Positions 28,860 through 31,912 of a DNA stretch of 64,000 nt are shown here, one piece after another. Below the pieces are notes generated by a model that worked only from the letters and a program-made list of their open reading frames with translations, was not told where the DNA came from and searched no databases. The position numbers and the translations under genes were made by a program. Each line of letters starts with the position of its first letter. Positions within the stretch are counted from its first letter, which is position 1. The stretch comes from Limnohabitans sp. 2KL-51 (GTDB taxonomy: Bacteria; Pseudomonadota; Gammaproteobacteria; Burkholderiales; Burkholderiaceae_C), in assembly GCF_003063645.1 (NCBI RefSeq), contig NZ_NESJ01000001.1:248001-312000 (forward strand). The letters run 5' to 3'.

Positions 28860-30287
<1,428 letters not shown>

Positions 30288-30303
30288 TTGATCTTCTGAT
30301 CTG

Positions 30304-30337
30304 ACTGCTGCCTCTGTTTCGTTACAGGGGCGGCAGT
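30304..30337 (+). other. 14-bp hairpin after the boxB stop
   Basis: ACTGCTGCCTCTGT (30304-30317) pairs with ACAGGGGCGGCAGT (30324-30337) around a TTCGTT loop, with two G-U pairs if read as plus-strand RNA. It begins 16 bp after boxB and shares 5 bases with the next stem, so the two cannot form fully at once. There is no T run. Confidence 0.55.
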
Positions 30338-30410
30338 TGACAGAGGAAGGGGCGGGTTCCTCATACTGGGGTACCAGAAATCGTCACCCGCCCCTTCCCC
30401 TGTCAACTGC
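30333..30410 (+). repeat. Long hairpin element, copy 1 (plus orientation)
   Basis: A 25-bp stem (30333-30357 with 30386-30410, one A-C mismatch at 30344/30399) closes a 28-nt loop. The loop bases 30359-30383 (core CATACTGGGGTACCAG) are a perfect reverse complement of 30495-30519 in copy 2. Stem sequences differ between the copies but each keeps its own pairing. Confidence 0.8.
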
Positions 30411-30470
30411 ATGAGTGCTTTAAGCGCAGAAACACCGGTAGACTGCCGAGGTTCAAACTGGCACAGAGTG

Positions 30471-30542
30471 ACGGCATGGCTTGGGGCCGGGCGCCGATTT
30501 CTGGTACCCCAGTATGAGGCGCCCGGCCCCAAGCCATACCGT
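30471..30542 (-). repeat. Long hairpin element, copy 2 (minus orientation)
   Basis: A 25-bp stem (30471-30495 with 30518-30542, one C-A mismatch at 30475/30538) closes a 22-nt loop. Read on the minus strand, the loop is the same as in copy 1, and the GC-rich inner stem is similar but changed on both arms in a compensating way. It ends 57 bp before the boxA start; 60 bp separate the two copies. Confidence 0.8.
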
Positions 30543-30598
30543 TGCGGGCCTCGCAAACCAAAAACAAATCGCCAAAGACACAACAAGTGAGCCAAGAC

Positions 30599-31912
30599 AT
30601 GAGCACAGAAGCCACGCTGATCAAACAACACCTGATTGACCCGGAAATCTGCATCCGCTGCAACACCTGCGAAGCAATTTGCCCGGTCGGTGCCATCACG
30701 CACGACTCGCTCAACTACGTCGTCAAGGCCGATATCTGCAACGGTTGCATGGACTGCATCTCGCCATGCCCCACCGGCTCGATCGATAACTGGCGCATGG
30801 TGCCCAAGGCCAAGGCCTACAGCATCGAAGAACAACTCAAGTGGTACGACCTGCCCGCAGAATTGAGTGCTCAAGAGTTGGCTGCTGCGGGCGGCGTCGC
30901 AGACACTGCACAAGAAGAAGCGCAAACCGCCGTGCAAGCGGCAGCAGCTTCCTCAGCTTCGGCGGTCAGCACCGCCACTGCTTCGGGTTTCAACTCGGCG
31001 CAGTTTGGCGCAACCCTTCCCCCTTGGTCTGCGGCCCACGCCTACACCAACCTGTATGGCCCCAAGGCGCAAGACAAAACCATCACCGCCAGCGTGACTG
31101 GCAACCTGCGCGTCACCGAGGTGGGTTTGCAAGAGGGCCAGCAAGACTATGACACGCACCACATCGTGCTGGACTTTGGCAGCTTGCCTTTCCCGGTGCT
31201 CGAAGGCCAGTCGATTGGCATCATCCCTCCCGGGCTGGACGCCAACGGCAAGCTGCACCATGCGCGCCAATACTCGATCGCCAGCCCGCGTAATGGCGAA
31301 CGGCCAGGGCACAACAACGTTTCGCTCACCATCAAGCGCGTGCTCGAAGACCACGACGGCAAAGCTGTGCGTGGCGTGGCCTCCAACTTCATGTGCGACC
31401 TGTTGGTCGGTGACAAAGTGCAGGTGATTGGGCCGTTTGGCGCGAGCTTCTTGATGCCCAACCACCCCAAGAGCAACATCGTCATGATTTGCACAGGCAC
31501 CGGCAGTGCCCCCATGCGGGCCATGACCGAGTGGCGTCGTCGCCTTCGCGCCAGCGGCAAGTTTGAAGGTGGCAAGCTGATGCTGTTCTTCGGCGCCCGC
31601 ACCCCTGCCGAGCTGCCGTACTTTGGCCCGCTCAACAATCTGCCCAAAGACTTCATCGACATCGAGTTTGCTTTCTCTCGCGAGGTAGGCAAACCCAAGC
31701 GTTATGTGCAAGACGCGCTGCGCGACCGCGCCGCCGACATCGCGCTGCAGCTCAAAGACCCGAACACCTGCTTTTATGTGTGTGGCCTCAAAAGCATGGA
31801 AGAGGGCGTGGTCATGGCCCTGCGCGACATCGCGCAAAATGGGGGGCTGGACTGGGACCATATCGGTACGGCCCTGAAAAAAGAAGGCCGCTTGCACCTG
31901 GAAACTTATTGA
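30599..31912 (+). CDS. boxA: Benzoyl-CoA 2,3-epoxidase, reductase subunit BoxA
   Basis: BoxA passes electrons from NADPH through FAD and iron-sulfur clusters to BoxB. The 437-residue product starts with a ferredoxin domain holding two 4Fe-4S motifs ([16 protein letters not shown] and [16 protein letters not shown]), then an Ala-rich linker (about residues 95-135), then a ferredoxin-NADP reductase domain with [12 protein letters not shown] for FAD and [15 protein letters not shown] for the nucleotide. [10 protein letters not shown] at 30599 is the start; the frame is open upstream into the hairpin region. The 311-bp gap from boxB contains the hairpin elements. Confidence 0.94.

Follow-up and report, generated by a model that had tools for sequence, protein, structure and literature searches.

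What are the two hairpins that face each other between boxB and boxA in Limnohabitans sp. 2KL-51: a switch belonging to these two genes, or copies of a wider family? The window, the whole stretch of DNA analysed, comprises 64 000 nt, and positions below are counted from its first letter. From the letters alone an original prediction had proposed, among other readings, a mobile hairpin family and an RNA kissing-loop switch that sets BoxA against BoxB.

Structure of the boxB-boxA hairpins

The flanking ORFs, both on the plus strand, match curated NCBIfam models, TIGR03225 upstream (28860–30287, E = 4.4e-268) and TIGR03224 downstream (30599–31912, E = 7.6e-216), which bears out their naming as boxB and boxA. 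Hairpin 1 (30333–30410) folds from the minus strand and hairpin 2 (30471–30542) from the plus strand. The arms of hairpin 1 are 25 nt each and 96% complementary, and hairpin 2 has one mismatch among 25 stem positions on the plus strand, so the predicted 25-bp stems with a single mismatch are found in both copies. The 25-nt loops (30359–30383 and 30495–30519) are exact reverse complements, again as predicted. Both hairpins fold far better than shuffled sequence; RNA folding gives −61.3 kcal/mol for hairpin 1 (minus strand, z = −10.8) and −61.3 kcal/mol for hairpin 2 (plus strand, z = −9.2), and none of 200 shuffles equalled either. Read along its folded strand, each hairpin consists of stem, C, GATTT, CTGG-TACC-CCAG, TATGA, G and stem, the core GATTT-CTGG-TACC-CCAG-TATGA occupying 30361–30382 (minus) in hairpin 1 and 30496–30517 (plus) in hairpin 2. 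Below the closing C-G pair hairpin 1 has GA/GA mismatches and hairpin 2 is fully paired.

A third hairpin 3′ of boxB (30304–30337, plus strand) also folds (RNA fold z = −7.4) and shares 30333–30337 with hairpin 1, the five bases for which the two had been said to compete; by eye, a similar CTGC-rich inverted repeat lies 3′ of boxB in relatives. The spacer of the doublet (30411–30470, no strand assigned) contains TAGACT at 30439–30444. Of the 26 orthologous gaps that exceed 250 nt, 25 retain this motif, which may belong to a boxA promoter; no sigma-70 promoter match was found in the boxB-boxA region. The predicted absence of a T-run terminator holds, with no intrinsic terminator (hairpin plus T run) in 30250–30640. 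Rfam 15 gives no match at gathering score in the window, and below threshold only miRNA-type matches and one aspS match.

A fixed internal loop, a covarying stem and a preferred strand

Copies agree in one part, the internal loop C-GATTT / YATGA-G, read on the complement of the strand given in the original prediction. What had been called the loop combines this internal loop with an apical hairpin of 4 bp; the description 'conserved loop, variable stem' was thus correct in placing the constant part inside, but the constant part is the internal loop and not the whole 25 nt. GATTY and YATGA are kept in all 38 hairpins taken from covariance-model matches in which the core letters were not required (five further rows, the same hairpins on the other strand, were left out). 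The apical hairpin changes: a variant set hand-picked from model matches includes CTGG-TACC-CCAG, CTG-CTCG-CAG, CTG-GGCCTTTGA-CAG and others. In a genome from another family of the order (locus L309, genome G427) the same core surrounds an apical structure of 107 nt. One way to draw GATTT / YATGA is with tandem G.A pairs, U.U and U-A. Directly beneath the closing C-G pair, roughly half of the copies have two mismatched positions, G.A/A.G.

The stem is conserved as a pairing. Exact-core copies number 203 distinct sequences, 200 of them with enough flank, and a stem is present in 193 of these 200 before any choice based on pairing. For the covariation analysis 76 rows were chosen for pairing and for identity below 80%; in this alignment 93.9% of cells are paired, both partners vary in 27 of the 29 pairs, two-sided changes occur in 731 cells (183 in shuffles), and the covariation score is 0.877, where shuffles give 0.176 and a slid alignment never exceeds 0.158. 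Pairing reaches ≥90% at the majority of positions up to about 26. The compensating changes noticed between the two window copies therefore extend across aligned copies of the family, where the proposed test of stem covariation supports them. The element is a long stem nearly free in sequence around a short, fixed internal loop.

Which strand folds can be read from the mismatches. On the strand written in the original prediction, with no wobble allowed, 266 A.C mismatches face 62 G.T, which places G.T/U on the other strand; the hairpins had been recognised correctly, but it is the complement of the written strand that folds. On the folded strand, 57 non-redundant stems have 86 G.T/U and 11 A.C, and 42 hairpins favour G.T against 2 that favour A.C (p = 1e-10). 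A wobble-tolerant scan gives 313:31, and the ratio is much the same for either direction of the neighbouring gene (112:8 one way, 89:8 the other). Strand choice thus belongs to the element, and read-through transcription cannot be the cause of the bias. Hairpin 1 of the window, with G.T on its folded strand, agrees with the family, and hairpin 2, with A.C, is an exception. With DNA parameters both strands fold about equally well. RNA and single-stranded DNA alike tolerate wobble better than A.C, so the bias by itself does not pick the molecule. Since it ignores the direction of transcription, and since hairpins nest in hairpin loops and insert into genes (below), single-stranded DNA is favoured over RNA, though not decisively.

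Distribution, doublets and insertion sites

The loop core searched for in the window's own genome and in relatives is found in further copies in both. The own genome has six loop-pattern copies (≤1 mismatch) and at least 17 matches to a covariance model, R1, built from 76 copies (per-genome copy numbers from R1 are lower bounds). The loop pattern with ≤2 mismatches occurs in 14 of 200 genomes of the window's family, and R1 in 71 of 349 genomes of that family, which fall in 42 of 141 genera, in four of 250 genomes of the order (three of the four in the same family) and in two of 369 genomes of the class (both in the family); the own genome is included in each of the family, order and class counts. 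The sole R1 match outside the family in these sets is that in G427, from another family of the order, which is weak to moderate (E = 2e-9). Among the matches listed, Rhodoferax, Limnohabitans, Polaromonas and Comamonadaceae make up most of the named records, and one genome titled Polaromonas has 61 loops and 28 distinct doublets. Titles outside Comamonadaceae account for seven of 119 matches listed. Three of these (L041, L083, L098) have no stem. In the other four (L040, L057, L077, L144), titled Akkermansia, Cryomorphaceae and Singulisphaera, the stem is present, and these are probably mis-binned Limnohabitans or Comamonadaceae-like DNA. Plasmids gave four weak 26-nt matches, in Sinorhizobium plasmids, phages none and viral contigs one pattern match without a stem; mobile plasmids and phages were on this count rejected as carriers. 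A search of the open-access literature found no description of this hairpin element.

The unit is an inverted pair of hairpins, sometimes a single hairpin. Close neighbours number 47; 43 of them are inverted, all with one sense, at distances of 105–274 nt, and the four direct ones are all in three-hairpin loci. In the Polaromonas-titled genome partners lie 153–155 nt apart with a partly conserved spacer, and across its 28 doublets conservation drops at the outer stem bases, some copies sharing longer flanks. By our own gene caller 283 of 299 distinct hairpins are intergenic; of the 299, 19 have a gene start on either side and 50 a gene end on either side, and 20–50 nt 3′ of a stop codon is a common distance. 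Between two distant hairpins at L108 there are, by eye, ordinary genes including a DNA methyltransferase-like ORF. In tandem contexts, single hairpins have the strand of the original prediction in the sense of the preceding gene in 36 cases against 25, a mild bias that counts against a mobile element or leaves room for a function in cis. A common regulon was considered and rejected: neighbour proteins share no theme, the 84 searched (the longer 84 of 153 listed) match 123 Pfam families, and among the 25 families listed none has more than three members.

Orthologous sites differ in occupancy. For boxB-boxA, 60 genomes were searched, 55 matched and the best 30 were compared, the BoxB end being readable in 29. 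Hairpin 1 is present in 28 of the 29 gaps, and 24 of the 26 complete gaps have both hairpins; an extra hairpin occurs in 12 loci of the 29, and one gap (L199) has no hairpin at all. That both are kept in 24 of 26 gaps could mean a function. The BoxB of one genome (G211) is 99% identical to that of the window. Identity of the two loops is less general than their presence, being found in six of 24 orthologous gaps and, elsewhere, in 27 of 92 distinct doublets. At a second site, between genes for an acyl-CoA dehydrogenase and a CoA-transferase (11 of 13 strong matches readable), five relatives have both cores, the stem being degraded in one of them, three have hairpin 1 only and three have neither; in the hairpin-free gaps the genes are only 5–38 nt apart. 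This polymorphism fits insertion and loss alike. In three of these gaps (L255, L257, L260) a classical GTAG repeat, GTAGGTCGGAGCTTCAGCTCCGACAT, is inserted between the two hairpins.

The remaining 16 of the 299 hairpins are intragenic, 13 in uvrA of four other genomes, one in leuS and two in a weak ORF call. In the own genome (L367:333–6806) four hairpins lie in frame in a fused UvrA of 2158 aa, so that in-frame uvrA hairpins are known from five genomes (the others at L241, L249, L239 and L243), at loci hand-picked from lower-scoring matches and not a random sample. They are translated as linkers such as SSYGGGTPKSSPS or DDFGVPPPYEEP, and lie before about profile position 450 of UvrA or between the fused copies. 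The leuS hairpin (L248:2–994) is also in frame, in a stretch of 331 aa that covers only 289 profile positions.

Relation to RAYT, candidate explanations and known systems

In one genome titled Limnohabitans (G384), TTAATTGGGGTCAGATCAACATTAATT-type repeats flank the gene for RAYT, the transposase of REPINs, and the TTAATTGGGGTCAGATCAACATTAATT-type palindrome occurs five times with a short loop (short REPINs) and seven times with one of the present hairpins as its loop; once a REPIN occupies the place of the hairpin loop. Such REPIN-type arms enclose 29 of the 299 distinct hairpins, and the loops occur either way round. A Y1_Tnp match is present in nine of the first ten genomes. A RAYT homologue is found in 29 of 30 hairpin genomes and equally in 30 of 30 hairpin-free genomes, the one hairpin genome that lacks it being rated 100% complete; no hairpin lies within about 1.5 kb in 13 loci with RAYT or Y1_Tnp matches; and the RAYT genes of hairpin genomes are flanked by a different repeat. 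At L302 and L161–L169 RAYT is flanked by TTAATTGGGGTCAGAT-type repeats, and in some of the flanks inspected by eye a gltB-like start comes next. GTAG near the 5′ base of the stem is not enriched (15 of 276 hairpins, 28 in the control stretch), and CGTC near the stem base was counted, with no control stretch, in 20 of 276. RAYT was accordingly rejected as the obvious mover, and no autonomous partner or transposase was found for the hairpins. The original prediction had set them apart from REP sequences; the missing GTAG tag agrees with this, but the layout is REPIN-like.

We judge it somewhat probable that the boxB-boxA hairpins are a non-autonomous, strand-specific, REPIN-like mobile element of Comamonadaceae. 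The mobile hairpin family of the original prediction is upheld by the many further copies, the constant loop in a covarying stem, the filled and empty sites and the in-frame uvrA insertions. The moving unit would be the inverted pair, each hairpin folding from one specific strand with a stem of 25–30 bp, topped by the closing C-G pair, the invariant GATTT / YATGA and a small, changing apical hairpin. As the internal loop is invariant, a putative trans-acting factor may recognise it on the folded single strand, and such recognition may be how the element moves. The boxB-boxA doublet would then be an old, retained insertion and any effect on BoxA or BoxB levels secondary. Its retention and the A.C mismatch of copy 2, together with the negative search for a partner transposase, count against mobility or leave room for a function in cis. 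More tentatively, the identity of the element may lie in its fold and not in its sequence, an invariant loop in a stem that is rewritten, recognised as a single strand by a putative enzyme other than TnpA_REP and moving as inverted doublets and into hairpin loops.

The kissing-loop switch has in its favour the exact complementarity of the two window loops; this follows, however, from their being two inverted copies of one element, the loops differ in most gaps and doublets although the hairpins persist, and the same doublets stand beside unrelated genes with no common theme. A conserved switch was rejected on these counts, and we regard this explanation as most improbable. That the folded strand is transcribed, and acts as a G.U-tolerant RNA hairpin that binds a protein or protects or processes the RNA, is unlikely but deserves more weight: the tandem-GA-like internal loop and the excess of G.U over A.C, roughly 10:1 on one strand, resemble selection on RNA, and intergenic copies are commonly close behind stop codons, but the bias is the same for either direction of neighbouring transcription, and neither a promoter at boxB-boxA, an Rfam family at gathering score nor a theme among the 84 neighbour proteins was found. 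A divergent REP/REPIN class moved by the resident RAYT (TnpA_REP) is a doubtful alternative; the inverted doublets, intergenic spread and stem mismatches would fit, as would the seven hairpins within RAYT's own REPINs, the REPIN-type arms and the homologue in nearly all hairpin genomes, but the homologue is as frequent in hairpin-free genomes and missing from a complete hairpin genome, GTAG is rarer at the stem base than in the control stretch, and the repeats beside RAYT are of another type. Template switching between the arms is known to correct long inverted repeats, and the hairpins might be old palindromes kept perfect mainly by such mutation, with no current mobility or function. At one locus the stems of relatives do show several linked changes in both arms, but such mutation by itself does not account for the invariant internal loop, the strand bias or the dispersal, and we consider it improbable.

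Small palindromic repeats are usually defined by a conserved sequence; here the internal loop and the folding strand are fixed instead, which provides a handle for finding a strand-specific factor that binds or moves hairpins in freshwater Comamonadaceae, and the covarying stems form a natural series for comparing recognition of single-stranded DNA and RNA. The complementary loops of two inverted repeats should not be taken as regulatory kissing.

Among known systems, IS200/IS605 elements and the miniature elements derived from them resemble the present family in their partly mispaired terminal hairpins. In those elements both hairpins are on one strand, whereas 43 of 47 close neighbours in the present family fold from opposite strands. 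Integron attC sites share the folding of one strand, the imperfect stem and the variable terminal structure; in the hairpins described here the conserved part is internal. The BRE repeats of Polaromonas, Rhodoferax and other Comamonadaceae are reported in PMC3110155 to be about 90 bp, GC-rich and inter- or intragenic, as are the hairpins in the same genera. They are described there as tandem repeats aligned by sequence, 'hairpin' and 'stem-loop' not being applied to them in the main text, whereas only four of 47 neighbouring hairpins are direct; on this comparison, by description only, BRE could overlap with the hairpin family. The closest likeness in layout is to REPINs/BIMEs with TnpA_REP, which according to PMC3733652 and PMC8266576 are likewise inverted hairpin pairs in many copies, mostly intergenic with in-frame intragenic copies, the folded strand not being equivalent to its complement. 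Unlike REP/REPIN stems of 5–13 bp (PMC3733652), the stems here are about 25–30 bp; the hairpins have neither the GTAG tag nor an association with RAYT, and their identity resides in the internal loop while the stem covaries freely.
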